Assembly: GCA_030377895.1 (NCBI GenBank) | Contig: JAUCGB010000007.1 | Coordinates: 1 to 64,000 of the forward strand | DNA from: Anaerolineales bacterium HSG24 | GTDB taxonomy: Bacteria > Chloroflexota > Anaerolineae > 4572-78 > J111 | Direction of reading: 5' to 3' | Length of the DNA stretch: 64,000 nucleotides | Part shown: positions 3 through 48,801 of the stretch, piece by piece | How positions within the stretch are numbered: the stretch's first letter is position 1 | Layout: each line of letters starts with the position of its first letter | The notes under the pieces: generated by a model | Told to the model about the DNA's origin: nothing | Seen by the model: the letters and a program-made list of their open reading frames with translations, nothing else | The model's database searches: none | Program-made: the position numbers and the translations under genes

Positions 3-2078
3 CCAGAAGGGGCGAGGATTGCCACCCTCTGTAGCGCAAACGATTTGTCTATGCCGATACCGTTTTACACTTACGGTTATCGAGATGTGGGCTATCGAGA
101 AGGTGTACCGGCTGAGGGGAGGTTGCTTGGTCAGGCGATGAAGACCGAAAGCTACTCGCTGTTGTTGGACACGACCCAGATTGGGCCTGGCATGAGTGGC
201 TCGCCGTTGTATATCCCGCAGGTAGACCGAGTGGTGGGGGTGGTGACGGCGGTTTGGACTAAACGAACAGAGATAGGGGTAGACCACAATACCTCTTTTG
301 CCATGCCTGCGGAGGAGATTCAGCGGTTGTGGCCGGAGTTGGTTTTTGAGCCGCCCCAACCAGACCGGCCCGATATCCCCCAAGATAAACCTCCCCGCCC
401 AAAGCCGTTTATAGACCGCAAAGCCGAGTTAAAAAAGTTACTGGCTCAACTGCACCCGGGCCAAACCGTGACCCTGTGCGGCCCGGGCGGCATGGGTAAA
501 ACCGCCCTCGCTAGTGAAGCGATTTGGCAGTTAGCAACGGATCGTTTTCCCGATGGGATTATTTTTCATAGTTTTTATGATTTTCCCCAAACCGATATTG
601 CCCTAGAGTATATCATCACCTCGTTGGGGGGACAGGCCGAGCCGCCTTTAGATTTGACGGCTAAACGCTTGTTGGCTGGCAAACGGCTGTTGTTATTGCT
701 GGATGGGGCTGAGGATGCCGACGATTTGAAACGGTTGCAAAAACTAACGGGCAGTTGTGGGATCATCATCACTAGTCGCAAACGGAGCGATGCCCCCAAC
801 CCTCGACAACGCCAAGACATAACTCCCTTGCCTGCTGACGAGGCTCTGACCCTGCTCAAAACCCTAATCTACCCGCAAGCTCAGAGCTTGCGGGTAGATG
901 ACGACCGCGAGTTAATCCAAATTCGTGACATATTGGGTGGTTGGCCGTTGGCGGTGCGATTGGTTGGCCGATATTTGGCCGAAACTGGCGAACCGTTGGC
1001 CGACTATTTAGATTGGCTAAAAGAGACCCCTTTAGCCGCCTTAAGTCATGGTGATCACCGTCAAGAAAGCGTTACAGTTTTGTTAGAGCGCACCATAGAC
1101 CGGCTGAGTGAGGGAGCTAAGGAGCTACTGAGTTTAACCTGTCTGTTAGCCATTGCCCCCTTTAAGCGAGATTGGCTAACCAGTGCCTTAGACAAATCAT
1201 TTAACCAACTACGACCAGCCTTTAACGAACTAACCGGCTATGGCCTGCTCCAATCCCTAAAGGTTTCTGAAACCTTTAGGGATTCTGCACCACAGTACCA
1301 ACTCAGTCATGCCCTAATTCATACCTACATCCGACACGAAGTTACTCCTTTAGGGAGTGAACAACTTAAACTCTCAACTGAACTGATTGAGCAGTTAGAA
1401 AAGACCCTTTTAACCGAAGCCAATCAAATCAACAATGCCGGCTACCCTTTGGCTATGACATGGTCAAACCATCTGCGAGTTATCACCGATTTAGCCATTG
1501 CCCAAAGCCACCAGCCCGCGGCAGGTTTAGCCAATGAATTGGGCTACTATCTGAACTCGATTGCCAATTACGAGGCGGCCCGCCCCTATTTCGAGAAGGC
1601 CCTAGAGATCAATCGGGAGGTGTTGGGCCAGCGGCACCCGGACACGGCTCAAAGCCTGAACAACCTTGGGGCATTGCTGAGAGCGATGGGTGATTACGAG
1701 GCGGCCCGCCCCTACTACGAGAAGGCCCTAGAGATAAGGAGGGAGGTGTTGGGCCAGCGGCACCCGTCCACGGCTCAAAGCCTGAACAACCTTGGGTTTT
1801 TGCTTCAAGCGATGGGGGATTACGAGGCGGCCCGCCCCTACTACGAGAAGGCCCTAGAGATCAATCGGGAGGTGTTGGGCCAGCGGCACCCGTTGACTGC
1901 GAGTAGCCTGAACAACCTTGGGGGATTGCTTGATTCTATGGGGGATTACGAGGCGGCCCGCCCCTACTACGAGAAGGCCCTAGAGATCCATCGGGAGGTG
2001 TTGGGCCAGCGGCACCCAGACACGGCGACTAGCCTGAGGTGTTGGGCCAGCGGCACCCGTCCACGGCGACTAGCCTGA
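3..2078 (+). CDS. Trypsin-like / NB-ARC (STAND) / TPR protein, 5'-truncated by the window edge
   Basis: The frame is open to the window's left edge, so the true start lies upstream; the first internal start is a TTG at 45. Counting from 45, residues 1-70 are the end of a trypsin-like serine protease domain with the GMSGSP motif (nucleophile Ser about 51). An NB-ARC ATPase follows: P-loop GPGGMGKT at 146-153, Walker B LLLLLDGAED near 215, GGWPLA near 305. From about residue 510 come kinesin-light-chain-like TPRs of 42 residues (GDYEAARPYYEKALEI) that are nearly identical in DNA. Proteins of this layout are STAND NTPases; in multicellular bacteria such protease-STAND-repeat proteins are thought to be conflict or defence sensors, with the TPRs binding a trigger and the protease as effector. 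The frame ends at a TGA created by a partial repeat deletion; two further TPR fragments follow in other frames. Function is inferred. Confidence 0.85.
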   Translation, partial: PEGARIATLCSANDLSMPIPFYTYGYRDVGYREGVPAEGRLLGQAMKTESYSLLLDTTQIGPGMSGSPLYIPQVDRVVGVVTAVWTKRTEIGVDHNTSFAMPAEEIQRLWPELVFEPPQPDRPDIPQDKPPRPKPFIDRKAELKKLLAQLHPGQTVTLCGPGGMGKTALASEAIWQLATDRFPDGIIFHSFYDFPQTDIALEYIITSLGGQAEPPLDLTAKRLLAGKRLLLLLDGAEDADDLKRLQKLTGSCGIIITSRKRSDAPNPRQRQDITPLPADEALTLLKTLIYPQAQSLRVDDDRELIQIRDILGGWPLAVRLVGRYLAETGEPLADYLDWLKETPLAALSHGDHRQESVTVLLERTIDRLSEGAKELLSLTCLLAIAPFKRDWLTSALDKSFNQLRPAFNELTGYGLLQSLKVSETFRDSAPQYQLSHALIHTYIRHEVTPLGSEQLKLSTELIEQLEKTLLTEANQINNAGYPLAMTWSNHLRVITDLAIAQSHQPAAGLANELGYYLNSIANYEAARPYFEKALEINREVLGQRHPDTAQSLNNLGALLRAMGDYEAARPYYEKALEIRREVLGQRHPSTAQSLNNLGFLLQAMGDYEAARPYYEKALEINREVLGQRHPLTASSLNNLGGLLDSMGDYEAARPYYEKALEIHREVLGQRHPDTATSLRCWASGTRPRRLA
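867..899. repeat. 33-bp perfect palindrome inside the STAND gene
   Basis: Arms of 15 bp (ATCTACCCGCAAGCT) around a 3-nt loop. The same CCCGCAAG core hairpin recurs between genes near 25.48, 27.99, 31.99, 34.58 and 60.59 kb. Here it is translated in frame as part of the NB-ARC domain (about residues 275-285). Confidence 0.9.
1252..1284. repeat. Second 33-bp perfect palindrome inside the STAND gene
   Basis: Arms of 15 bp (AATCCCTAAAGGTTT) and a 3-nt loop, again exactly 11 codons and in frame (about residues 403-413). The CCTAAAGG core recurs between genes near 32.92, 38.82 and 44.64 kb. Confidence 0.9.
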
Positions 2079-5381: not shown

Positions 5382-5414
5382 TCAAACCAGATTCAAACAT
5401 TGACGTGTTACTAT
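5382..5414 (+). promoter_or_regulatory. PhoB/OmpR-like promoter, copy 1
   Basis: TCAAAC at 5382 and 5393 (11-bp phase), then 10 bp, then the -10 box TACTAT at 5409-5414. The same geometry occurs before the small-peptide genes at 10319 and 17221. Confidence 0.65.
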
Positions 5415-5475: not shown

Positions 5476-5535
5476 GTGAAAGTACGAAAAGTAGAAGTGG
5501 TAAAACCGACGGGTGCTAGTCGAGGTGGGTCATAA
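5476..5535 (+). CDS. 19-residue peptide MKVRKVEVVKPTGASRGGS
   Basis: GTG start preceded by the Shine-Dalgarno AAGGGAG; stop TAA at 5533. The peptide is basic with a Gly/Ser-rich end. It is supported by its promoter, which shares the phased TCAAAC repeats of two other small-peptide genes, and by a strong terminator downstream. A hairpin (CTTGGTT/AACCAAG, about 5546-5567) lies just after the stop. It shows no clear sequence similarity to the other two peptides. The locus could alternatively be a small RNA with an incidental ORF. Confidence 0.45.
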   Translation: MKVRKVEVVKPTGASRGGS

Positions 5536-5706: not shown

Positions 5707-8700
5707 CTACATCCTCGTCTCATTCTTCATATATTTATTGTTCACTTGCAGATACGCCTCACGTAAATCGTCATCCTGAATATGTTCGGCCCGTGTTTCG
5801 ATAAAATTTCGAGCCAGACTATAAGCCTGTTCAGCCCGGCTATCCCCCACATGGGCAAAAACATCCCCACAGGCGCAGTAATCCCGTTGTGGAAACTCCG
5901 GCCCCTCTCCCTTACATTCTTCTAACAACTCCCATGCTTGATTGGCATACTCAACCGCTTTGTTTGTATCGCCTTGCGTCAAATAGGCTTTGGCCAACAC
6001 TGCAAAATTATCAGTAGTTGACCATTTCATATCCAACGTATGGTGTAGAGTCATTGATTTATTTGCCTGCTCAATCGCCTTATCACAATCACCAATTTCT
6101 ACATAAACCATTGATAAATAGTTATGAAAATAAGTCATTAAACTTTTGTCACCAGCCGTCTTGACAATCACCATACCCTCTAACAGAAGTTGTTCCGCTT
6201 TAGCATAATCCCCTTGGTCTAGCTCAACCAAGCCCCAATTGACTAGCAGGTAAGCCACGCCAACCTCATCTCCAATATCTTGAGCGAGTTTTATGCCAGA
6301 GCGCAAACAATCTTCAGCTTCTGAAAAAACACCTAGTTCCTGAAACATGATACCTAAATCAATCCAAACATTCACCTCTTCCCATCGGTTATTGGTGGCC
6401 TGTAAAATCTCTAAGGCTTGATTTGAATAGATTTGGGCTTGGTGATAGTGACCCTGATTTCGCGTCGTTCCAGATAAATCGTTTAGAATTTTACCTTCTC
6501 CAACTCGGTCACCAGTTAACTGTTGAATGGTCAAAGCTTGTTGATAATACGCCACCGCCACTTGATGATGTCGTTGATAAGAAGCAATGTCTCCTAGTTT
6601 GTAGTATGCAACCGCCTGATTCTGTTTATCTTCCAACTCTCCACTCATAGCCAGCGCGTCCTCGGCATAGGTGGTCGCTCCTTGAAAATCACCCTGTTGC
6701 CTCTTAACGGTACTAAGACCATGAAAGATTTCGATGACGATATGGCGTTTGGTTTCAGTCGTTATAGTTTTCAAATCAAGCAACCCAATCGCCTCGTTAT
6801 ACCGCTCTTCAGCTAGATTATAGTTGCCCTGCTTGGTGGCGAGTAGGGCTAGATTCAGCCAGCTCGCGGCCTGCTCGGTTATGGTTTCGGCCACGGACAA
6901 GGCCGCTTTACCCGCTTTTTCAGCCTCATCATATTCGGCGATGGCGAAATAAAGCTCAAACCAGAGCTTATGCTGGCCCAGATTGGTCACGTCAGGCGTA
7001 TCGGCCAACGTCTCTAAGGCGGCTCGTTGACGGTCGCGCAAGCCGAGCAGGTGCAGAATTTCGATTTGGCCCAAACGCAACTGAGCCACTTCGCCAAACT
7101 CGAGGGCCTTGGTGTAAAAGTCGAGGGCGGTCTCGTTGGCGTATTCAATTTTGGCCTTGAGCGCGGCTCGCTCTAAATGGTAAACGGCTTTGTCGGCAAT
7201 TTTGGCTTCGTAAAAATGATGAGCCAGCCGTTCCACCTCATCGGGTTTGACGACCTCCAAACTTTCAGCAATCAGTCGATGGTATTGCCGCTCCTTATCA
7301 CCTAGCATGGTTTCGTAGGCCACCTGTTGCGTGATGTTGTGGCGAAAGATAAAGGCTCTGCTAGGCGTGAGCGGATCGGGCTGGATAAAATCCTGCTCTT
7401 GCAAATCGGCCATCATCAGCCTAATTTCATCGGTTTGGAGTCGTTCTGGATGAGCATGGGCCAACACATCAAACTCAAATTTGCGTCCGATGAGACTGGC
7501 AAACTTGAGCAGATTAAAGCTCGTGGGCGGCAACCCCTTTAACCGATTTAAGACGACTTCATGCATCGTTTCCGGTATCCCTAAATCAATCTTGGTCAAG
7601 TCATCAGCCACCCAACTGCCACCTTGTTTTAGAATATGATTATTGGCCTTAAGTTGATTGAACAGGTGGGGGACAATATGCCACTCGTTCTTAACCGGAT
7701 GCAGATAGATAAAATCACCACTTTGTAACGATTTGGTAAACTCCTGCACAAAAAACGGTACGCCTTGCGTTTTCGATTGTATCAGATTAACCACCAAGGT
7801 CGATATTTCGTCGCCCAGCAGATGTTTAGCATACTGATAAACCCCCTCCGCCGATAGCTCGCCCAAATGAAGATGGCTGTAGTTGGAGATTCCTTCAAAC
7901 AGTTTGGTGACAGATTTGCCAGTGATAGGCCGTTGTACCAACAGATACATCACTCCCAAATCTTTTTGTCGTCGGGTCAGGCTGGCGAGGAGTTGCCAAC
8001 TAGCCTCATCGAGCCAATGGGTATCCTCCAGCAAAATCACAATTGGATTTTCAAACTGGTAGGTTTCGGGCGAGATGGTGGCATGCTGAATAATCTTCTC
8101 GGCCAGATCGAATAGGGAATTTTGCCGTACTTCAGGGCTAAAGTTGGCCGTGGTTGCGTTGTCGGGAATGTTCAAATTCAGAAGGTCGCCCAACACCGGC
8201 AAACGGACTAAATAGCGTCGACCAATCCCCTTAATTTTTTGCTCTAAATGGACAATCTGTTTCTCTAACTGTTGTTGATTAACTTGCCGAATCTGATCGG
8301 CGGTCATGCGATAAGTTGCGGTGATCTCGGGTGTAGCCGGAAGGTCTAGCAGTGCCCTAAAAATGGCTCGCCACGGATGATACATCACGTTTTGGATACT
8401 TGGGTCGCAACTGCCTTGAATCACCCGTACCCCACGACGATAGGCCCGCTTGACAAATTCGTTTGCTAGATGGCTCTTGCCAATCCCTTTGACTCCTTCT
8501 ATACAAAAAACCTGCTCCTTTTCGGCCCAAATCACTCCTAACGAGCGATCAATACGGCTGATCTGCGAACCTCGTCCCCAGAGTGGCTCGGTAAATTGAC
8601 TAAAAATATCGAGCTGTAACGCATCAATCACCCGATAAATTTCATGATGTCCGACCTTGCCCTTAAGTTGCACCGCCCCGACATGGTCAAACCGATATTT

Positions 8701-9891
8701 TTTATGCCCATAATCATAAATCGACTGACTGACCATTATCTCGCCCGGTTTGGCCTTGCTCATCAAGCGAGCCGCGGTGTTAACCGTGTCGCCTAAGCCG
8801 CCATAAGTCAGCCGGTTTTTGCCGCCATACCGTCCGGTGCGGGTGCGTCCGTAGTCAATGCCGATTTTGACGGTGTTGATATAGTCAAACTGGTCGGCCA
8901 CATGTTGTAGGGCTATGGCCGCGTCGATGGCCTGTTTGCCTGCGTCATCGAGAGGCAACGGCGCGCCAAACATCACATAAAAATAGCTGCCCTTATCGCC
9001 AAAAATAAGCTGTTTGATGTAACTGCGATAACTTTGTAGAGTTCGCTGGGTCTGTTGGATAAAGTCGTTTAGCTTCGTAGACGCGTCTGGATCGCGGTCA
9101 TAATCTAACCCAGTAAAGCTGAAAAATAGGACGGCCACTGGCTGGAGGGTATCCAACTCATCGGCTCGGTCTTCTTGATACTGTTGATAAACAGGGGGCA
9201 GAACCCAAGGTTGCACTTCGGATTCGGGGACAGAGGTAGCAGTCAGCGGCCAAGGTTCAACTTCTGGCTGATGATTGATGCTCCGTACCACAGCGTACCG
9301 CGCCCCTTTGAGATATTGGCTCTCCTTGCCGCGCTGTTCAGCAATATCGAGCGAGCCATTCAAGTAAACGGCCACCTCTGGACTAAGTAACACCTCACCC
9401 GATGCGGCGAATTTTTCGGCCTTGGCCATGCGGTTCAGAGTGTCACCAACTAGCACATCAAGTAGTTGAATCTTGGGATCGCCGACTAGAAAACGGTTGG
9501 CGTTACCACTGGCAACGGCTACTTTTAAGGCTAAGGGCGGCTCAAGCGAGGCAAAACGTTGCATGGCTGATTGCATAGCTAATCCGCAGGCGGTAGCTCG
9601 CAAGCCATCATCTTGCTCAAACCAACAGGTAATCGCGTCCCCAGCGAAGGTGAGGACGCTTCCGCGATAACAATGGACTTGCTCAACCAAAACGCCATAC
9701 ACCTCGTTGAGTTGAACGGTCAGCAAGTCGTTGCCGCGCCGAATATCATATTGCTGAATCAGTAGTTCGGTTAGGGGGGTAAAGCCAGAGACATCGGCAA
9801 ACAGGGCCGTGCCCCATGTTCCACGGGGAAGGGTTTTCTCGACTCGCCGGTCAATTGGAAGGTAGGAGAGTGTTTTTGCAGGACTATTCAT
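5707..9891 (-). CDS. Class III cyclase-like / AAA ATPase / TPR signalling protein (1394 aa)
   Basis: Residues about 25-205 form a guanylate/adenylate cyclase homology domain with FADVSGF and FAGDAITCWF, keeping both metal-binding Asp positions. A second cyclase-type domain (about 240-425) has FFSFTGL where the first metal Asp should be, but retains GDTVNTAARL. A STAND/MalT-like ATPase follows (P-loop GVKGIGKS near 470; ILLEDTHWLDEASW near 650) and then about 500 residues of TPRs. This order is known in large adenylate-cyclase/AAA/TPR regulators, which are thought to couple ligand sensing by the TPRs to ATPase-driven control of the cyclase. One degenerate and one intact domain suggests a pseudo-heterodimeric catalytic pair. 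It stands alone between repeats, with start ATG at 9891. No effector gene is adjacent. Confidence 0.85.
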   Translation of the reverse strand: MNSPAKTLSYLPIDRRVEKTLPRGTWGTALFADVSGFTPLTELLIQQYDIRRGNDLLTVQLNEVYGVLVEQVHCYRGSVLTFAGDAITCWFEQDDGLRATACGLAMQSAMQRFASLEPPLALKVAVASGNANRFLVGDPKIQLLDVLVGDTLNRMAKAEKFAASGEVLLSPEVAVYLNGSLDIAEQRGKESQYLKGARYAVVRSINHQPEVEPWPLTATSVPESEVQPWVLPPVYQQYQEDRADELDTLQPVAVLFFSFTGLDYDRDPDASTKLNDFIQQTQRTLQSYRSYIKQLIFGDKGSYFYVMFGAPLPLDDAGKQAIDAAIALQHVADQFDYINTVKIGIDYGRTRTGRYGGKNRLTYGGLGDTVNTAARLMSKAKPGEIMVSQSIYDYGHKKYRFDHVGAVQLKGKVGHHEIYRVIDALQLDIFSQFTEPLWGRGSQISRIDRSLGVIWAEKEQVFCIEGVKGIGKSHLANEFVKRAYRRGVRVIQGSCDPSIQNVMYHPWRAIFRALLDLPATPEITATYRMTADQIRQVNQQQLEKQIVHLEQKIKGIGRRYLVRLPVLGDLLNLNIPDNATTANFSPEVRQNSLFDLAEKIIQHATISPETYQFENPIVILLEDTHWLDEASWQLLASLTRRQKDLGVMYLLVQRPITGKSVTKLFEGISNYSHLHLGELSAEGVYQYAKHLLGDEISTLVVNLIQSKTQGVPFFVQEFTKSLQSGDFIYLHPVKNEWHIVPHLFNQLKANNHILKQGGSWVADDLTKIDLGIPETMHEVVLNRLKGLPPTSFNLLKFASLIGRKFEFDVLAHAHPERLQTDEIRLMMADLQEQDFIQPDPLTPSRAFIFRHNITQQVAYETMLGDKERQYHRLIAESLEVVKPDEVERLAHHFYEAKIADKAVYHLERAALKAKIEYANETALDFYTKALEFGEVAQLRLGQIEILHLLGLRDRQRAALETLADTPDVTNLGQHKLWFELYFAIAEYDEAEKAGKAALSVAETITEQAASWLNLALLATKQGNYNLAEERYNEAIGLLDLKTITTETKRHIVIEIFHGLSTVKRQQGDFQGATTYAEDALAMSGELEDKQNQAVAYYKLGDIASYQRHHQVAVAYYQQALTIQQLTGDRVGEGKILNDLSGTTRNQGHYHQAQIYSNQALEILQATNNRWEEVNVWIDLGIMFQELGVFSEAEDCLRSGIKLAQDIGDEVGVAYLLVNWGLVELDQGDYAKAEQLLLEGMVIVKTAGDKSLMTYFHNYLSMVYVEIGDCDKAIEQANKSMTLHHTLDMKWSTTDNFAVLAKAYLTQGDTNKAVEYANQAWELLEECKGEGPEFPQRDYCACGDVFAHVGDSRAEQAYSLARNFIETRAEHIQDDDLREAYLQVNNKYMKNETRM

Positions 9892-10235: not shown

Positions 10236-10268
10236 TCAAACCAATTTCAAACGTTCGTAGTGTATAAT
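10236..10268 (+). promoter_or_regulatory. PhoB/OmpR-like promoter of peptide A
   Basis: TCAAAC at 10236 and 10247, 10 bp, then a consensus TATAAT at 10263-10268. No -35 box: the direct repeats occupy that position, as in PhoB-activated promoters. Confidence 0.75.
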
Positions 10269-10318: not shown

Positions 10319-10489
10319 ATGAAAAATATCGTAGCAGTTGAAGACAAAGTAAAAGTAGAAGAAACGTTGCCGGTTTATGAAGTACCAACGGTGACAACTT
10401 ATACTGATGAAGCAATTCTTGAAGAGTTGGGACCAGCTCAAGCCAACACCTATGAGGTGGATAACCCGTTCGAAGGCAGTAAATTTTAA
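10319..10489 (+). CDS. Peptide A, leader-like small peptide (56 aa)
   Basis: ATG at 10319 with Shine-Dalgarno AAGGAG; TAA at 10487. The peptide contains LPVYEVPTVTTYTDEAILEE then LGPAQA and an acidic tail ending FEGSKF. It aligns with peptide B (17069-17221) over about 30 residues. The YExPT start of the block resembles the YxxP element by which RiPP leader peptides dock to RRE domains, and an abrupt GPAQA before a variable tail fits a leader/core border. No radical SAM, YcaO, lanthionine synthetase, B1/B2 or ATP-grasp gene is in the window, so RiPP identity is inference. It lies in front of a secreted protein gene. Confidence 0.7.
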   Translation: MKNIVAVEDKVKVEETLPVYEVPTVTTYTDEAILEELGPAQANTYEVDNPFEGSKF

Positions 10490-10534
10490 AAACTAGGTTT
10501 TCGTTTGGGCCATATCATGCTGAAACCGTAGGTT

Positions 10535-10616: not shown

Positions 10617-12776
10617 ATGAAAGTGATAAAATCTTTAGCAATTTTGCTCGTGCTTTTTATGATAGTAACACCAATTTTGGCTGATGAGCCAGACCCAATT
10701 GGTGGAGGCCCGGTGGGACAAGATACGGGTGGGGAAGTTGTTGTAGCACAACAAGATAATGATACATGTCACACAAACGTTGATGGTTTTACCATTTGTT
10801 TTGTTAGTAAAAATGGTAATGACTGGACATACACTGTCACCAGTGATGATGACAAAAATACCAAAGCTTTGAGCCATGTTGTGTTTGGTCTGTGTGCCTA
10901 TCCAACGAATGTAACTACGACTGGTGGTAGTGGTGGTTATGTACACGAAGATGGTCAACTCCAAGTAGACCCAACGACCGGCACTTACGGTTATAAGCTG
11001 GATACTACAGAGCCTGGATTAGGTGAAGATAAGACTATCGAAACGACCACCTTTGTGTTCACCTTAGATGCTGATTATGGCGAAGGCACAATCACTGTAG
11101 CCACCAAAGCTGGCGGAGTTAGTGCTTATTCTTCTGATATAACCGGCCCCAATTGTGATAACGTAGCTACTTCAACCCCTGAACCAACCTCTGAACCAAC
11201 CTCTGAACCGACAGATGAACCAACCTCTGAACCAACTCCTGATTTAGGTACGACTAGCTGTAAATTATACTCAGTTCATGATGAAAGTACCCGAGATTCA
11301 CAGTTCTTCACCATTGATCTTCTTACCAATGAGGTCGTTGCTTTGAATGACGAACTACATGAAGAAAAAGATTTAGAAGGTTTAGATTTTGAACCGGGGA
11401 CAGGTCGCTTGTTTGCTACATCCGGTAAAGATGCTGGTCAACAAAACCCAGCACAACCGAGCGAACTCTATCTTGTTAACTCCGAAAATGGTGATATTAC
11501 TCTAGTAGGTACGATTGAAGATGATACTGCTCCTTTCTATGATGTTGCAGCCTTGAGTTTTCGTAATGATGGAACATTATGGGCTTATGGTCGCAAAAAA
11601 AGCAAGGTTGGTCGAAAGGGTGTCATCCAACTTGACCCCAATACTGGCAAAGTTCTCTTCTATAAAAGCAGTGGTATAAACGCCGAAGCTGTTGCTTGGA
11701 GCCCGGATGGTAGCACACTCTGGATCGCTTACAAAAAGAAATTGTATACCTATACCGAAGGTGGTTCTGTTAGCTATAAAGATACCGTGAGTGCCCCCGA
11801 TGATATAGAAGGTTTGGGCTTCGGGCCAAGTGGTTATCTAATGGCCGGTGTCCATCACGGTGGTAAGATCAACATCTTCTCAATGGATGTTAGCGACCCA
11901 ACTGATGTTAAAGTTGTTGGTAACTCAGTGGTTTCAACAAACCAATTTGAAGATGTAGAATCAATCGCTTGGCTTGATGGCTGTGAAGGTTCACTTGGTG
12001 ATACCGTTTGGAACGATAGTGATGAAGATGGTCTTCAAGATGATAATGAAGAAGGTATTGTCGGTGCCGTTGTCAATCTCTATGAAGATACCGATGGTAA
12101 TGGTGAATTTAATCCCGATACGACCGGTGATCCCTTCAATCCCAATGGTGATTTGTTAGTCGCGACAACCCAGACCAATAATAGCGGAAAGTATCTGTTT
12201 GATAATTTACTTCCCAACCAATACTTCGTGGCCTTAGATGACAGCAACTTTAGTGATGCGGGTGCTTTGGTTGGCTATGAGGTAACGAAGAAAGATGCTG
12301 GTGATGATGATAGTGATGATAGTGATGGTAGTACCTCCTCACCTTACGTTACCACGTTGATTAACTTACCAGCCGAGACAGATGATATGACTTGGGACTT
12401 TGGCCTCTTTGAGCCGGGTACAACTGCTATTGCCCTGAAATCATTCACTACTGATATTCAAGGCAACACAGTTATCATCAACTGGGAAACCGCGGCTGAG
12501 ATTGATAACGCTGGTTTTAACATCTACCGGGCCAATGCTCTGAATGGTCAGTATGAGAAGATCAACGAGCGAATGATTGGTGCCCAAGGTGGTTTGGCTG
12601 GTGCAGTCTACAGCTTTGAAGATACACCGCCGGCAGTTGGCGTTTACTTCTACGTCCTTGAAGATATTGACACCTTCGGTCTAGCAACCTCTTACGAACC
12701 AGTTCAAGCCTCTCTTAAAGATATTCTACCAACACGTAGCCTCAACTACCACCCAATACGACCAGCAACCAACTAA
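10617..12776 (+). CDS. Secreted multidomain protein with beta-propeller-like and SdrD B-like domains (719 aa)
   Basis: A signal peptide (MKVIKSLAILLVLFMIVTPI, cleavage probably after ILA) precedes an unassigned domain (45-185), a Pro/Thr/Glu linker with repeated EPTS units (188-212), a six-bladed-propeller-like repeat region (about 215-455, e.g. DLEGLDFEPGTGRLFATSG), an SdrD B-like domain (GDTVWNDSDEDGLQDDNEEG, about 459-560; normally Ca-binding) and a C-terminal Fn3-like module (AEIDNAGFNIYRA) frequent in Chloroflexota exoproteins. There is no LPXTG or anchor, so secretion or loose surface association is likely. Shine-Dalgarno TAGGAG before the ATG. It stands directly after peptide A and before the C25 protease, suggesting a surface module. 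Confidence 0.8.
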   Translation: MKVIKSLAILLVLFMIVTPILADEPDPIGGGPVGQDTGGEVVVAQQDNDTCHTNVDGFTICFVSKNGNDWTYTVTSDDDKNTKALSHVVFGLCAYPTNVTTTGGSGGYVHEDGQLQVDPTTGTYGYKLDTTEPGLGEDKTIETTTFVFTLDADYGEGTITVATKAGGVSAYSSDITGPNCDNVATSTPEPTSEPTSEPTDEPTSEPTPDLGTTSCKLYSVHDESTRDSQFFTIDLLTNEVVALNDELHEEKDLEGLDFEPGTGRLFATSGKDAGQQNPAQPSELYLVNSENGDITLVGTIEDDTAPFYDVAALSFRNDGTLWAYGRKKSKVGRKGVIQLDPNTGKVLFYKSSGINAEAVAWSPDGSTLWIAYKKKLYTYTEGGSVSYKDTVSAPDDIEGLGFGPSGYLMAGVHHGGKINIFSMDVSDPTDVKVVGNSVVSTNQFEDVESIAWLDGCEGSLGDTVWNDSDEDGLQDDNEEGIVGAVVNLYEDTDGNGEFNPDTTGDPFNPNGDLLVATTQTNNSGKYLFDNLLPNQYFVALDDSNFSDAGALVGYEVTKKDAGDDDSDDSDGSTSSPYVTTLINLPAETDDMTWDFGLFEPGTTAIALKSFTTDIQGNTVIINWETAAEIDNAGFNIYRANALNGQYEKINERMIGAQGGLAGAVYSFEDTPPAVGVYFYVLEDIDTFGLATSYEPVQASLKDILPTRSLNYHPIRPATN

Positions 12777-12839: not shown

Positions 12840-13170
12840 AGATGCAACAGTCTTTCAGATAATCTTATTGTCACGCTACAAGCGTGACCTCCAATTATCG
12901 TAGGTGACGCTTGTAGCGTCACGTGAAGGCTGTAGTTTGTTCGAGAACAAAAACCCACCTATAGATTCTTAACTATGGGTGGGTTGTCTGTTTTAGGACT
13001 CATTCCTAACTTGCCTTTGATGAAACGGTAAGTTACAATCGGAATGACTATCAAAAGTTTGTCGCTTCACCGAACTATAGATTTTTAGGACACGAATTAA
13101 CACAGAGAAACACGGATAATACAAAAAAATCCGTGTAAATCCGCGTTATTCGCGTCCAGAATTATTTTTG
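12840..13170. repeat. Cluster of palindromic intergenic repeats
   Basis: Contains ACAGTCTTTCAGATAA followed by GTCACGCTACAAGCGTGAC and GTGACGCTTGTAGCGTCAC hairpins (12848-12925), a CCCACC/GGTGGG hairpin near 12955, and a region from GACACGAATTAACAC to GCGTTATTCGCGTCC (13090-13160) that has a relative at 57340-57525. No gene. Confidence 0.7.
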
Positions 13171-13224
13171 TTGAGAAACGATAAACTTTTGGACTATCAT
13201 TCTAAATTTAAGGAGATAAATTTT

Positions 13225-16200
13225 ATGAAGAACAAGCAAATTTTTGTCGTTTTAGTAGTTACATTGTTGTTGGTAACTGGTTCAGCTTCATTAGTTGTGG
13301 CTCAAGGGCCTGAGCCTGATGAAGCTAACCTTTCTCATGATGGTGCTGGTCTGAAAGTTATCACAAATAATTCCCAAAAAATTTTGGTTGAGTTGACTAT
13401 TGATGATTATCAAATTGAGACTATTACTCACAATGGTCAAACATACCAGCGGTTGAATGTTCCAGAAACGGTTCAATCAACTAAGATTGGCAAACCTCAA
13501 CTGCCGATTCTAGGAACTTGGCTGGGTGTGCCAACCACCAATGATGTTTCGGTCAAGATAGTTGAAACCGAATCTGAAACATTGACGGGTTATCCGCTAT
13601 ATCCGGCTCCGGCAACAAAGATTGTCGGGCAAGGTCTACAACAGTATGCCCAAGAGGTTTTTGCCCTTGATGAGCAAACTTATAATACCGATGCCTTCTA
13701 TCCTAATGAAAGTGAAATTGCTACGCTTGGTGATACAGGCAAAATTCGTGAGCAAGCAGTAGCTCAATTGCAATTTTATGCGGCACAGCATAACCCACTG
13801 ACAGGTGAAACACGGCTCTACACGCGGATTTTGGTTGAAATTACATGGGATGGTTCAGCCAGAACTGCTCAAGAGCAAACTGTCAGCTCGGCTTATGATA
13901 GCATGTATAAAAATATTCTGCTCAATTATGATGAACTGAATCTCCAGACCGCTCAACCGGCCCCGCAGGGACGAGCCAAAGTTGAAGCCCAACAAACAGC
14001 CAAGACTATCAAAATTAGTGTAGAAAACAATGGTATCTACAAAGTCGGTTATGAAGATTTGACTACCGCCGGATTAGATTTAAGTGGGGTTACACCGACT
14101 AATATAAAGATGACCCACCTCGGTCAACCGGTTGATATTTGGGTGATTAGCGCAGATGGTAGCACATTCAAAACTGGAGATTATGTTCTCTTTTATGGTC
14201 AGACAATCGAAAGTATCTACACGACCAAAAATATATATCTCTTGACCGTTGGTGAGGCTGGTCAGCAGATGTCTAGCCGTGATGGCGCTCCCCAAGGTGG
14301 CACAGTGCCCACTGAGTTTCCCATCGAAGCCCATTTTGAAGAGGATACTAATAATCAGCGGACAATACCTGATGGTGAAGGCAAAGATCATTGGTTCTGG
14401 GGTGGTTTGATTGCCCCGAATACTGATAAACTAGACCCCAGTCGTGATTATAAGGTTACACTCAACAACATTTCAACCACAGCTACCTCCGCAACTATTC
14501 GGGTACAACTATATGGTCAAACTGATGATCAGAGCGTTGCTGCCGATAAACCAAACCATAACACCAAAATCTCTCTCAACGATAGCGAGATTGATAATCA
14601 AACTTGGCGCGGGAAAATCTTTTATACCCATACAGTTGAAATAGACCACTCTAAGCTAACAGAGGGTGAGAATATTATCAAAGTTGAAACGCCCGGTGGT
14701 ACGGAGGCTAACGTTGAATCGGCCTATATCAACTGGATTGAGATTGATTACTTTGGAACCTACAAAGCTGATGATAATCAACTGTTTTTTAATGCGCCCA
14801 ATGCTGGTTCGTTCCAATTTGAAGTGACAGGTTTTACTGGTGACAGTGTTGATCTGTTTGATATTACCGACCCTAATAAACTGGTTCGCATTACTGATGG
14901 TACTGTCACCGATGGCAAGCTACAGTTCCAACAAGATGCGGCTCAAGATACCGAATATCTGGCTCTCACTTCGGCGCGGTATCAAACCCCAAGCAGTATC
15001 GCACTTGATGAAGCCTCTACTTTGAAGAGTGATAATAGTTATGCTAACTATATCATTATCAGCCATAGAGATTTTCTGACGGATGCAGAGCGTTTGGCTG
15101 AATATCACCGCGATGCCTTTACTCGGACTGTACGAGTGGTTAAAATAGATGATGTGTATGACGAGTTCAGCGACAGCATCTTTACGCCACAAGCGATTCG
15201 TGACTTTTTGAAACACGCTTATGAAAACTGGAAAGATAGCTCTAACAATCGTCCTGACTATGTGCTATTGTTGGGTGATGGGTTTGATGATTATCGAAAG
15301 TTGGAGTCTCAGAGTAAAGATATGACCAACTACATCCCACCACAGTTGATAGAAATTGCTGGTGAAATTTCTAATGGACAAACTCCTTCTGATAACTGGT
15401 TTGTGGAGGTTAGCGGTAATGATGTATTGCCGGATATGATGATTGGTCGCTTACCGGCCCAAAGTAGTACTGAGGCCAAGACAATGGTTGATAAGATTAT
15501 CAGTTATGAGCCGACTGATGCTTGGCAGAAAAATGTGTTGTTTATATCCGATGACGGTAATGATATTGTACCCGGTGATATTTATGACCCCGTTTTCGAT
15601 ACTGTGTCAGACTATTTGGCTTCTGCTGTACCTCACTATTACACAGTCAATAAAGTATATTTCAACCAATATTCTGATACTTCTACCACTACACCAAAAC
15701 AGGATATAAATACGCATATCAACAATGGTACTTTGCTAGTCAACTATGCTGGTCACGGAGAAGTTAACGCATGGGGACTGTGGAAAAGGGAAGAAGTTCT
15801 TCCGCCGAATGATATCAACAATCTTAATAATGGTGATAAATTACCTTTAGTTACGGTAGCCAACTGTCTGAGTGGTTTCTTTTCTAGTGTGAAAGTGACC
15901 AACTCAATGGCCGAAACTTTTCTACGGGCTGATAATAAGGGGGCTGTGGCTGTTTGGGCTCCTTCATGGCTTGATTTCCCATCTGGACACCGAACCTTGA
16001 TAAGTAATTTCTATGACCATTTCTTTGAGAATGATATGTATGTAATAGGGCATGCAGTCGATAGAACTAAGTTGGGTATCTATGGTCAGAATCATGATTG
16101 GAAAACATTGGTACAGACCTTCATTCTATTTGGTGATCCAGCTATGCCACTTGGGGTAGCCCCAAACTATCCTTACGTGGAATACACATCCCCGGAGGCT

Positions 16201-16821
16201 GGCACAACTGATATATCGTTGGATAGTAGCATTGAGGTTTTATTCAATAAACCTGTTTTGCCAGACTCGGTCAAAATTGAGGTTCAGGGTGCGACCAACT
16301 TGACCTTTACTCCAAAATGGAATAGCGTTGATACATCCGTTAAATACACTGCCAGTACAAATTTTGCTACTAATCAAACACTTACGGTTACTATCTCCGG
16401 TGTTAAAGATGAGTTGGGCAATGAGTTAGGTGCCGGCTTAGTACCGTCTACATGGTCATTTACCACCGTGAATCCGGGCAGTATTAGTGGTAAGGTAACG
16501 GACAGTCAAGGGCAACCTCTAAGCGAAATGTTGGTGGAGGCAAATCTCAAGGCTAGTCGTCAAGCTACCTACGGGGAGGCAACCACCGATGCCACGGGAG
16601 TGTATACCATAACTGGTTTGGCTGCCGGTAGCTACATCATCAGTTACGAAGACCCCGACGAAGGTTATGCTCCTAAATATTACGACAACGTCACCGATAT
16701 TAGTCAAGCAACTCCGGTTGAGGTTAAAGCAGGGGAAACTAGTAGTGGATTTGATACTCAGTTAGAACCAGAACAAACGAGTAGTCCAGCTAAGACTTAT
16801 TTGCCTGTTGTTATCAAGTAA
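13225..16821 (+). CDS. Gingipain-type C25 cysteine protease, secreted (1198 aa)
   Basis: The start at 13225 is chosen for its Shine-Dalgarno (AAGGAG) and the signal peptide it opens (MKNKQIFVVLVVTLLLVTGS, cleavage near VVAQ). The C25 catalytic pair is visible: His about 844 in NYAGHGE and Cys about 881 in VANCLSGFF. Downstream are a Big_5-type Ig-like domain (SLDSSIEVLFNKPV), a carboxypeptidase regulatory-like domain (GSISGKVTDSQGQPL) and the tail TYLPVVIK, a C-terminal pattern common in Chloroflexota exported proteins. The N-terminal about 200 residues resemble a gingipain propeptide. It should hydrolyse extracellular proteins or process surface proteins; specificity is unknown. Its neighbours are another secreted protein and two leader-like peptides. 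Maturation of those peptides by this protease is conceivable but has no direct support. Confidence 0.85.
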   Translation: MKNKQIFVVLVVTLLLVTGSASLVVAQGPEPDEANLSHDGAGLKVITNNSQKILVELTIDDYQIETITHNGQTYQRLNVPETVQSTKIGKPQLPILGTWLGVPTTNDVSVKIVETESETLTGYPLYPAPATKIVGQGLQQYAQEVFALDEQTYNTDAFYPNESEIATLGDTGKIREQAVAQLQFYAAQHNPLTGETRLYTRILVEITWDGSARTAQEQTVSSAYDSMYKNILLNYDELNLQTAQPAPQGRAKVEAQQTAKTIKISVENNGIYKVGYEDLTTAGLDLSGVTPTNIKMTHLGQPVDIWVISADGSTFKTGDYVLFYGQTIESIYTTKNIYLLTVGEAGQQMSSRDGAPQGGTVPTEFPIEAHFEEDTNNQRTIPDGEGKDHWFWGGLIAPNTDKLDPSRDYKVTLNNISTTATSATIRVQLYGQTDDQSVAADKPNHNTKISLNDSEIDNQTWRGKIFYTHTVEIDHSKLTEGENIIKVETPGGTEANVESAYINWIEIDYFGTYKADDNQLFFNAPNAGSFQFEVTGFTGDSVDLFDITDPNKLVRITDGTVTDGKLQFQQDAAQDTEYLALTSARYQTPSSIALDEASTLKSDNSYANYIIISHRDFLTDAERLAEYHRDAFTRTVRVVKIDDVYDEFSDSIFTPQAIRDFLKHAYENWKDSSNNRPDYVLLLGDGFDDYRKLESQSKDMTNYIPPQLIEIAGEISNGQTPSDNWFVEVSGNDVLPDMMIGRLPAQSSTEAKTMVDKIISYEPTDAWQKNVLFISDDGNDIVPGDIYDPVFDTVSDYLASAVPHYYTVNKVYFNQYSDTSTTTPKQDINTHINNGTLLVNYAGHGEVNAWGLWKREEVLPPNDINNLNNGDKLPLVTVANCLSGFFSSVKVTNSMAETFLRADNKGAVAVWAPSWLDFPSGHRTLISNFYDHFFENDMYVIGHAVDRTKLGIYGQNHDWKTLVQTFILFGDPAMPLGVAPNYPYVEYTSPEAGTTDISLDSSIEVLFNKPVLPDSVKIEVQGATNLTFTPKWNSVDTSVKYTASTNFATNQTLTVTISGVKDELGNELGAGLVPSTWSFTTVNPGSISGKVTDSQGQPLSEMLVEANLKASRQATYGEATTDATGVYTITGLAAGSYIISYEDPDEGYAPKYYDNVTDISQATPVEVKAGETSSGFDTQLEPEQTSSPAKTYLPVVIK

Positions 16822-17068: not shown

Positions 17069-17221
17069 CTACCAAACACCATCGCCTATATTATACTGGT
17101 TCGCTTGAGCAGGCCCTAACTCTTCAAGGATTTCGTCATCCGTGAAAGTTACAATCGTTGGTATTTCGTACACCGGTAGTTTTGTTTCTTCTACTTGAGT
17201 TACTTCTTTTTTGTCCGTCAT
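17069..17221 (-). CDS. Peptide B, leader-like small peptide (50 aa)
   Basis: The ATG at 17221 follows AGGAG; the longer ORF to 17272 lacks such a site. Sequence: MTDKKEVTQVEETKLPVYEI continuing PTIVTFTDDEILEELGPAQA and a 10-residue tail ending GDGVW. It shares about 22 of 30 central residues with peptide A while the tails differ completely, as for a conserved leader with a variable core. Its promoter has the same phased TCAAAC architecture as peptide A's. No modification enzyme is nearby. Confidence 0.75.
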   Translation of the reverse strand: MTDKKEVTQVEETKLPVYEIPTIVTFTDDEILEELGPAQANQYNIGDGVW

Positions 17222-17376
17222 TTTTGATCTCCTATTATTTTGATTACTTGGGTAATCCGACAACCAGATCACGTTATAAATTTATATTTGGCTATGGTCT
17301 TTGTTTCGGTCATCACTCAGCACTTCGCAACTCAGAGTGATATGGCCCAAACAAAAACGCTAGACCTTATATTTCT

Positions 17377-17521: not shown

Positions 17522-17599
17522 ATGAACAATTCTTATTGTAAGCATATTTACCTAGTATGCAACTCGACAACGAATCGTTGGATTTGGGCCTGCGAGTGA
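17522..17599 (+). CDS. 25-residue peptide with terminator overlapping its stop
   Basis: ATG preceded by the Shine-Dalgarno CACGGAGGA; translates as MNNSYCKHIYLVCNSTTNRW then IWACE. A GTCCCCC/GGGGGAC hairpin lies 30 nt before it, and an intrinsic terminator begins within its last codons. The terminator with the codons for CE-stop is repeated at 50239-50265. It could be a small protein, a leader peptide or a small RNA. No downstream gene suits Trp- or Cys-attenuation. Confidence 0.35.
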   Translation: MNNSYCKHIYLVCNSTTNRWIWACE

Positions 17600-46786: not shown

Positions 46787-47485
46787 ATGCCGAAAATTTT
46801 AGTCGTTGATGATGATAAAAAAATAGTTCGATTGGTGCGGGCCTATCTGGAGAAGACTAATTTTGAGGTATTGACCGCCTTCGATGGCGAGACGGCACTA
46901 CACATCATCCGACGCGACCAGCCCGATTTGGTTGTCCTCGATTTGATGCTCCCAGACCGAGATGGCTGGGACATCACCCGCATCATTCGGACCGAGCCGA
47001 ATTTGGCCCATCTGCCCATCATCATGTTGACCGCCCGCGTTGAGGATAGCGACAAAATCGTCGGGCTAGAGTTGGGCGCAGATGATTATATCAGCAAACC
47101 CTTTAACCCCAAAGAGGTGGTAGCTCGTGTGCGAGCGGTACTACGCCGTAGTGAAACAACCCGCGCCGTTGATAAACAGGTCGCGATTCAAATTGGGGCC
47201 TTACGAATCGAATTGACGCGGCATCAACTGTTGTACCACAATCAACCCCTGGAGTTGACTCCGACCGAGTTCGAGTTGATCAAACTGCTTATGGAAAATC
47301 CGGGGCGGGTCTTTAGTCGAACCGAACTCATCGAAAAGGGGCTAGGCTACAGTTACGAGGGGCTAGAACGCACGGTCGATAGCCATATCAAAAATATTCG
47401 TAAAAAAGTGAACGCGCCGAGCGACAGTCCGGCCTACATCGAGACGGTGCGGGGTGTGGGGTATCGGTTGCGGGGTGAGCGATGA
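46787..47485 (+). CDS. OmpR/PhoB-family response regulator
   Basis: Start MPKILVVDDDKKIVRL at 46787 after ACAGGAG; a longer ORF from 46721 has no such site. Receiver domain with DDD (8-10), phospho-acceptor Asp52 (LVVLDLMLP), Thr in MLTAR and Lys in ISKPF; C-terminal winged helix (ELTPTEFELIKLLMENPGRV, TVDSHIKNIRKK, VRGVGYRL). It overlaps the kinase gene by 4 bp (ATGA), so the pair is co-translated. Proteins of this family bind direct repeats spaced 11 bp, the phase seen at the three small-peptide promoters, which makes it one candidate regulator for them. Confidence 0.93.
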   Translation: MPKILVVDDDKKIVRLVRAYLEKTNFEVLTAFDGETALHIIRRDQPDLVVLDLMLPDRDGWDITRIIRTEPNLAHLPIIMLTARVEDSDKIVGLELGADDYISKPFNPKEVVARVRAVLRRSETTRAVDKQVAIQIGALRIELTRHQLLYHNQPLELTPTEFELIKLLMENPGRVFSRTELIEKGLGYSYEGLERTVDSHIKNIRKKVNAPSDSPAYIETVRGVGYRLRGER

Positions 47486-48801
47486 ACAAGCTGTGGGTCA
47501 GGCTGACTGTGGCCTTTGCTCTGGTGGTGCTGGTGACGATTCTGACCGTCTCCATGCTGACCAATCAACAAGTGGAGCAACAGTTTAACCAATTTATGAG
47601 ACATCATCAGACAAATTCTCCGTTGCAAACTGCATTAATCACCCATTTTGCCGAGCAGAAAAGTTGGGACGGCGTGGAAACGGTCTTTAAAAATTGGCCT
47701 CGTGGCAGACAAGGGCGAACAGATTTTGTGTTGGCTGACCCAAGCGGACAAATGATTTATGGATCCTCCCAACTTTTGCCAACAGCGTTGATAAACGGGG
47801 TTCCCATCAAATATCAACAGAAGGTTAGAGGTTATTTATGGGTTGATAATGTGACAGGTAACCTCTCGCCAGAAGCAACGCGTTTTTTGCGTCAGACCAA
47901 CATGACTCTGCTCCAAGCTGGTTTGATTGCCGGATTGCTGGGCCTACTGCTCGGTATTCTTGTGGCTCGGACCCTCTCTGCGCCGTTGGGGCAGTTGGCG
48001 ACAGCGGCCAAGTCTATTGCTCAGGGTGATTTTGAGCAGCGGGTTCCAATACAAGGGGCGGCTGAGTTGGCTGAGTTGGCTCAAACTTTTAACCACATGG
48101 CAATCCAACTCCAAGCGGCGGAGAGTCTGCGCCGTAACATGGTGGCCGATGTAGCCCATGAATTGCGTACCCCGTTGAGTGTAATTCAGGGCAATTTGCA
48201 AGCAATTTTGGATGATATTTATCCCCTAGACAAGGCCGAGATTGCCTCGATTCATGAGGAATCGCTCATTTTGGGACGACTAATCGCTGACCTGAAGGAG
48301 TTGGCTCAGGCCGAAGCGGGGCAGTTAAGTTTGACGATTCAGCCCACCGATTTGGCGGCTTTGTTACATCAACATGTGATGCGGTTTAAAGAGTTAGCCA
48401 ATGAGGAGCAAGTGACTCTCAAGCTGGATTTGTCTACTGATTTGCCACAAGTTTTGACCGATTCGGATCGCACCACCCAAGTTATTCACAACCTGCTCTC
48501 TAACGCCCTGCGCCACAGTCCGCCACAGGGAGAAATCATCGTTCAGGCAGAACGGTCTGAACTGGACACAGTGCGCGTGACCGTTATCGACAGTGGGCCG
48601 GGCATTGCCGAGGAGGACATGGCTCATCTGTTCAATCGGTTTTGGCGAGCTGATAAATCACGCACTCGTGAGCAGGGAGGCTCAGGGTTAGGGTTAGCTA
48701 TCAGTCAACAGTTAATTCAACATCAAAACGGGCAAATTGGGGTAGAGAGTCAACTGGGGCAAGGGAGTTGTTTTTGGTTTACGTTGCCGATAGCTATATA
48801 A
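47482..48801 (+). CDS. HAMP sensor histidine kinase (BaeS-like)
   Basis: Membrane helix at 5-27, an extracytoplasmic region of about 120 residues, a second helix near 145-165, HAMP (APLGQLATAAKSIAQGDFEQ), HisKA with DVAHELRTPLS, and HATPase_c with NLLSNALRHS, DSGPGI, FNRFWRADKSR and GGSGLGLAI. It autophosphorylates on the H-box His and signals to the preceding response regulator. Signal unknown. Confidence 0.93.
   Translation: MNKLWVRLTVAFALVVLVTILTVSMLTNQQVEQQFNQFMRHHQTNSPLQTALITHFAEQKSWDGVETVFKNWPRGRQGRTDFVLADPSGQMIYGSSQLLPTALINGVPIKYQQKVRGYLWVDNVTGNLSPEATRFLRQTNMTLLQAGLIAGLLGLLLGILVARTLSAPLGQLATAAKSIAQGDFEQRVPIQGAAELAELAQTFNHMAIQLQAAESLRRNMVADVAHELRTPLSVIQGNLQAILDDIYPLDKAEIASIHEESLILGRLIADLKELAQAEAGQLSLTIQPTDLAALLHQHVMRFKELANEEQVTLKLDLSTDLPQVLTDSDRTTQVIHNLLSNALRHSPPQGEIIVQAERSELDTVRVTVIDSGPGIAEEDMAHLFNRFWRADKSRTREQGGSGLGLAISQQLIQHQNGQIGVESQLGQGSCFWFTLPIAI

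Follow-up and report, generated by a model that had tools for sequence, protein, structure and literature searches.

Background

In the pho box, a direct repeat with an 11-bp period lies in the -35 region, and some 10 bp separate the end of its second half-site from the -10 box. The half-site recognised by Escherichia coli PhoB is TGTCA(T/C), and E. coli KdpE reads, at kdpFABC, two 6-bp half-sites, TTTATA/TTTACA, separated by a 5-bp spacer (PMC3264566). In SARP promoters, direct repeats recur at a distance of 11 or 22 bp, and the 3' repeat lies 8 bp from the -10 box (PMC10936776). Little is known of the regulons and promoter codes that uncultured Anaerolineae use. We describe here a promoter motif found in a 64,000-nucleotide stretch of DNA (the window) from the uncultured Chloroflexota Anaerolineales bacterium HSG24 (genome G000, a 4.04 Mb assembly, 75% complete). 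Working from sequence alone, the analysis yields a promoter code and points to one particular candidate regulator, notable for its unusual recognition helix; many of the listed targets have surface or extracellular functions, which bears on adhesion and mat building.

An 11-bp-phased promoter motif in the window

An earlier note on the window had proposed that three small-peptide genes share a promoter made of an 11-bp-phased repeat and a -10 box. The strict pattern YCAAAC-N5-YCAAAC-N10-TAnnnT was searched in the window, in the assembly and in relatives, and the three sites were recovered with exactly the coordinates and spacing that had been claimed (Table 1). The remark that they have no -35 box is fair, the -35 region being occupied by the two repeats. 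An extended -10 TG stands one base ahead of TACTAT at site 5382; it is absent or shifted at sites 10236 and 17409. The strict motif gave 3 matches in the window, where 60 dinucleotide shuffles averaged 0.017, and among the spacings found in the window between a TCAAAC and a second YCAAAC, 11 bp accounted for three cases and every other spacing for one. The sharing of the motif by the three window sites is genuine and far above chance. They are not fully independent of each other, since the 56-aa and 50-aa ORFs downstream of two of them are paralogous.

The genome-wide search that the note had called for returned 4 matches in the 4.04 Mb assembly and 0 with the reversed pattern. The description of a small regulon spread over 12 kb was thus an understatement: one further site is on a different contig, and as many as 23 strict sites occur in a relative. 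In the sister species, Anaerolineales bacterium HSG25 (G001), the same element (locus L010) precedes a gene homologous to the 5382 peptide gene.

Table 1. Coordinates of the promoter sites, short ORFs and regulators. Positions are those of the window unless a contig is given.
Feature	Position	Strand	Description
Motif site 1	5382-5414	+	TCAAACCAGATTCAAACATTGACGTGTTACTAT; two TCAAAC half-sites 11 bp apart, 10 bp to -10 TACTAT
Motif site 2	10236-10268	+	TCAAACCAATTTCAAACGTTCGTAGTGTATAAT; -10 TATAAT
Motif site 3	17409-17377	-	TCAAACCAAAACCAAACTTTCATGTTGTATACT; second half-site CCAAAC, -10 TATACT
Motif site 4	contig 180: 16226-16258	-	Outside the window; precedes gene of a large secreted protein
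19-aa ORF	5476-5535	+	MKVRKVEVVKPTGASRGGS; GTG start
56-aa ORF	10319-10489	+	MKNIVAVEDKVKVEETLPVYEVPTVTTYTDEAILEELGPAQANTYEVDNPFEGSKF; downstream of site 2
50-aa ORF	17069-17221	-	MTDKKEVTQVEETKLPVYEIPTIVTFTDDEILEELGPAQANQYNIGDGVW; downstream of site 3; paralogue of the 56-aa ORF
SdrD_B-like protein gene	10617-12776	+	Secreted protein, SdrD_B-like domain (PF17210), signal-peptide-like N-terminus
OmpR-family response regulator	46787-47485	+	Activator proposed by the earlier note; histidine kinase partner at 47482-48801
RR-B	contig 48: 5754-6446		OmpR-family candidate activator, outside the window; recognition helix KSVKWYVWRLRTKIE

Short ORFs and neighbouring genes

Between each -10 box and the start of its short ORF lie 50-155 bp. 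In G001, the first 12 residues of the 19-aa ORF are identical and only its end varies; the identity of these residues despite four silent codon differences between the two genomes suggests that the ORF is translated. The 56-aa and 50-aa paralogues have in common the pattern LPVYE[VI]PT...ILEELGPAQAN and matched nothing in Pfam or NCBIfam. No RiPP-modifying enzyme was detected among the larger window proteins scanned, so that, within these searches, neither a known precursor family nor a modifying-enzyme gene nearby marks the two ORFs as RiPP precursors; their YxxP leader-like stretch is a resemblance only. Short genes of this kind (17-56 aa) tend to escape gene callers, and the promoter motif offers a handle for finding them. 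The SdrD_B-like gene has the same orientation as the 56-aa ORF, begins 127 bp past it and is possibly the second gene of the 10236 transcript.

Several other features of the window were recorded. The 15-mer GTTTGGGCCATATCA occurs exactly twice, at 10503-10517 (+) past the 56-aa ORF and at 17338-17352 (-) in the 5' leader of the 50-aa ORF. This leader (17222-17370, -) folds far better than shuffled sequences (z -3.9); neither it nor the rest of the window matched a known RNA family of Rfam at gathering score. A tiny ORF, MNNSYCKHIYLVCNSTTNRWIWACE, was read by eye at 17522-17599 (+), on the strand opposite to the 17409 promoter. The proteins encoded at 45-2078 (+), of NB-ARC/TPR type, and at 5707-9891 (-), of cyclase-AAA-TPR type, resemble FxSxx-COOH system proteins and TOMM kinase/cyclase proteins, respectively, both below the curated cut-offs. 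Finally, a gingipain-type C25 peptidase with propeptide, an unusual sight in a Chloroflexota genome, is encoded at 13168-16821 (+); type IX sortase PorU models matched it below cut-off.

Conservation and phylogenetic range of the motif

Among 61 related genomes, 10 contain the strict motif (23 sites in G011, 19 in G007, 5 in G008, 4 in G018 and fewer in the others), with 0-2 matches for the reversed-pattern controls, and the same genomes stand out when the -10 box is not required. At the level of the class, the strict motif was found in 12 of 298 Anaerolineae genomes belonging to five families, f1, f2 and, with one genome each, f11, f12 and f54. When 84,980 named genomes were scanned, the matches came mainly from records of Anaerolineales and further Chloroflexi (H5_CFX5, H5_CFX7, bin12, HSG25, J111, CSMAG_674, Dive96 and HyVt-206). 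The twelve scattered matches in other phyla look like chance occurrences, because six of them fall inside ORFs. The range of the motif is restricted to a small number of families within the Anaerolineae.

The resulting consensus is TTCAAAC-N4-TTCAAAC-N7-TG-N-TAtaaT. Base counts over 65 sites revealed strong conservation of the T directly ahead of each TCAAAC (position -1), of ATT before the second TCAAAC and of TG one base before the -10 box, all of them positions outside the letters required by the search. Replacing the 10-bp spacing by 9 bp gave background-level matches only. The note had named a lack of enrichment upstream of genes as grounds for rejecting its reading; 41 of 43 Chloroflexota sites proved to be intergenic, versus 22% of random positions drawn from the same loci (78% of which fall inside long ORFs).

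Genes downstream of the motif sites in relatives

The predicted targets comprise polysaccharide and NRPS genes as well as genes of surface, secreted and receiver proteins. In relatives, the motif stands before genes for a family-2 glycosyltransferase, for a membrane protein of the chain-length type with GGDEF, for condensation and adenylation proteins of NRPS, for surface proteins (DUF11, Calx-beta, CBM2-PPC and SdrD_B/Big_1/SpaA proteins), for single-domain receivers and for a regulator called here RR-A. Further targets are a PAPS-reductase-domain protein, a FemAB/GNAT protein, a subtilase, TadE, an AAA_35 protein and a periplasmic binding protein. A simple measure of hydrophobicity assigned a hydrophobic N-terminus to 24 of 47 non-redundant targets, as against 32 of 131 control genes (p = 0.0009). 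Surface location and secretion as a common theme of the targets are thereby supported, though not proven. The note had also pointed to phosphate limitation; this link was not borne out, no phosphate-uptake gene being located downstream of the sites examined.

Two kinds of loci deserve a separate mention. At L019, L020 and L023 (G016, G024 and G008, respectively), the motif precedes proteins of about 140 aa that are degenerate and receiver-like, with no DNA-binding domain. At L254 and L255 (G141 and G099, family f12), the gene following the VKWYxW regulator described below encodes a Pro/Thr-rich secreted protein, predicted to be motif-driven, whose end consists of LLPEVGGG and a hydrophobic stretch, resembling a sortase sorting signal.

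A regulator that co-occurs with the motif

Two kinds of regulators, OmpR-type and BTAD candidates, were compared with the distribution of the motif. The starting clue was an OmpR regulator of G098, with helix SVKWYIWSLRRKIE, whose gene lies 302 bp before a motif. Its counterpart in G000 is the candidate activator RR-B (Table 1), an OmpR-family response regulator with an N-terminal receiver domain (phospho-acceptor Asp, VIDDD and LDIMMPD motifs) and a winged-helix DNA-binding domain at its C-terminus; it is matched over its full length by OmpR-family NCBIfam models and by the PDB structures of MtrA, RpaA and KdpE. Among the 61 genomes, RR-B orthologues with at least 54% identity occur in motif-bearing genomes only, and G024 (63% complete) is the sole motif-bearing genome of this set with no detected RR-B.

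We then searched the 298 class genomes for the VKWYxW signature of the recognition helix with the helix-coding DNA pattern GTNAARTGGTAYNTNTGG. It was found in 27 genomes; the matches translate as C-termini of OmpR type, and for nearly all of them a receiver motif lies in frame. A VKWYxW regulator is present in 12 of the 12 strict-motif genomes and in 15 of the 286 genomes lacking the strict motif (Fisher p = 2e-14), a p-value that overstates independence because the genomes are related. The family-level value is safer: all 5 motif families are among the 7 of 59 families with VKWYxW (p = 4e-6). In a tree of 20 VKWYxW proteins, they form one clade with a support of 0.985, together with one RWYIW relative.

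The two elements are also linked in position. When up to two mismatches are tolerated, G291, G141, G099 and G068, all from f12 and devoid of the strict motif, exhibit a motif 24-145 bp past the VKWYxW stop codon; with G098 of f11, this makes five genomes in which the motif begins 24-302 bp past this stop and before a secreted-protein gene. Control genomes with no VKWYxW gave nothing but scattered matches at two mismatches. In f13, f23 and f2-g9, VKWYxW is present and the motif is found little or not at all, even at two mismatches; around the VKWYxW genes, a scan for 11-bp repeats of any other kind that accompany an extended -10 returned just the known ones. The VKWYxW gene of f1 and f2 has no motif of its own, its promoter in f1 being of a plain TTGACA type, and no kinase gene was detected among the neighbours of the RR-B gene in G000.

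When aligned with KdpE and PhoB, the VKWYxW signature overlaps the positions that contact bases in PhoB. Judging from published structures, the first Trp of the helix would occupy the base-contact position V197 of PhoB, and an Arg that of R201. The part of the earlier note that invoked a regulator of OmpR/PhoB type on the 11-bp repeat therefore probably holds, the motif being intergenic, located before genes in many genomes and tracking one recognition helix in its distribution; the protein at 46787, which it named as one candidate, is not supported (see below).

Proposed mechanism and alternative explanations

Starting from the motif, its conservation and intergenic position, and its computed co-occurrence and linkage with the VKWYxW regulator, we consider it probable (about 0.74) that the three window sites are activator-dependent housekeeping-sigma promoters of one regulon, read by a VKWYxW OmpR regulator, RR-B in this genome, with a largely surface or secreted output. 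A pair of protomers would bind head to tail on TTCAAAC-N4-TTCAAAC through the helix (S/N)VKWY(V/I)WxLRxKIE, and the bound half-sites would take the place of a -35 box. The bound regulator would then recruit the housekeeping polymerase to the often-extended -10 box (TGnTAtaaT), as PhoB and KdpE do. The regulon output would consist of adhesin-like proteins, exopolysaccharide, pilus-like and NRPS genes and receivers, and here of three short peptides. We infer that the VKWYxW regulator binds these sites, activates transcription and is controlled by phosphorylation.

A different activator has to be weighed for the same sites. RR-A, a KdpE-like OmpR regulator with helix DYLRLYISYLRRKLE, could be both the activator and its own target: the motif lies directly upstream of its gene in seven genomes (G006, G007, G008, G010, G011, G018 and G024, twice in G007 and G011), that site is the only strict one in G006 and G010, and the KdpE half-sites with their 5-bp spacer resemble TTCAAAC (PMC3264566). 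Yet RR-A is absent from the motif users G000 and G001, no orthologue above 52% exists in the motif genomes of f11, f12 and f54, and eight motif-less genomes of the order possess it with an essentially unchanged recognition helix. Missing in the former two and present in the latter eight, RR-A is better seen as a conserved target, and we regard it as an unlikely activator. In G007 and G010, its gene adjoins hybrid-kinase and sugar-transferase genes. The 46787 response regulator belongs to the OmpR family, is intact and is encoded near the sites, but it has an ordinary helix (RTVDSHIKNIRKKV), falls outside the VKWYxW clade and has its own kinase, which makes it a most improbable activator; it shares just 35% identity with RR-A. 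Less improbable, though still very unlikely, is an activator of the SARP/AfsR (BTAD) type: the 11-bp repeats of SARP promoters are suggestive and BTAD proteins abound in these genomes, but as they occur in 60 of the 61 genomes, with or without the motif, they do not track it. Moreover, SARP promoters have the -10 box about 2 bp closer to the repeats, and no BTAD gene linked to a motif was seen.

That the sites arose by chance, or that one promoter was copied along with duplicated peptide genes, is hardly credible. Two of the three sites could share one ancestral copy, given that the 50-aa and 56-aa paralogues both have GTTTGGGCCATATCA nearby; the same element, however, stands before unrelated genes in more than 10 genomes, sharply conserved and with an intergenic bias. 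As a full explanation, chance or promoter duplication is refuted by this recurrence before unrelated genes.

Beyond the reading of the motif by the VKWYxW regulator, a wider speculation can be put forward, to which we give little credit. The short peptides of this genus might be exported signals or modified peptides under the VKWYxW switch, making a cell-cell communication circuit. VKWYxW might define an OmpR subfamily of the Chloroflexota that has a half-site code to itself, TTCAAAC being read via the tryptophans of the recognition helix, and that acts as a master switch of surface structures and secondary metabolism.

Comparison with known systems

RR-B has the same winged-helix fold as E. 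coli KdpE and a full-length sequence match to 4KNY, but by alignment it carries Lys at R193, Trp at I194 and Arg at H198, and the KdpE-like YLRxY helix belongs to RR-A, not to RR-B. The targets also differ, a potassium pump for KdpE and, as predicted here, surface and secretion genes. The best curated-family and PDB matches of RR-B over its full length are MtrA, RpaA and RpaB; it nevertheless scores well under every NCBIfam equivalog cut-off (214 versus 300 for MtrA, 208 versus 330 for RpaB). The PhoB equivalog cut-off of 296 is likewise not reached, either by RR-B (184) or by the 46787 regulator (236). The SARP/AfsR regulators share with the proposed system an OmpR-type DNA-binding domain, 11-bp direct repeats over the -35 region and the control of secondary metabolism (PMC10936776), whereas they have a BTA domain, no receiver and a different spacing to the -10 box.

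A further parallel is E. coli PhoB, an OmpR-family regulator on an 11-bp-period repeat that replaces the -35 box about 10 bp from the -10, an arrangement predicted here. The differences reside in the half-site, TTCAAAC instead of TGTCA(T/C), in the VKWYxW helix and in the targets, among which no phosphate genes were seen. A literature search retrieved nothing relevant on the motif, on a comparable Chloroflexota regulon or on the peptides, nor the pairing of a TTCAAAC code with a VKWYxW helix, which was seen here only in Anaerolineae. The mechanism itself is not new, direct-repeat OmpR regulons being well known; what is new is the TTCAAAC regulon and the VKWYxW regulator subfamily.
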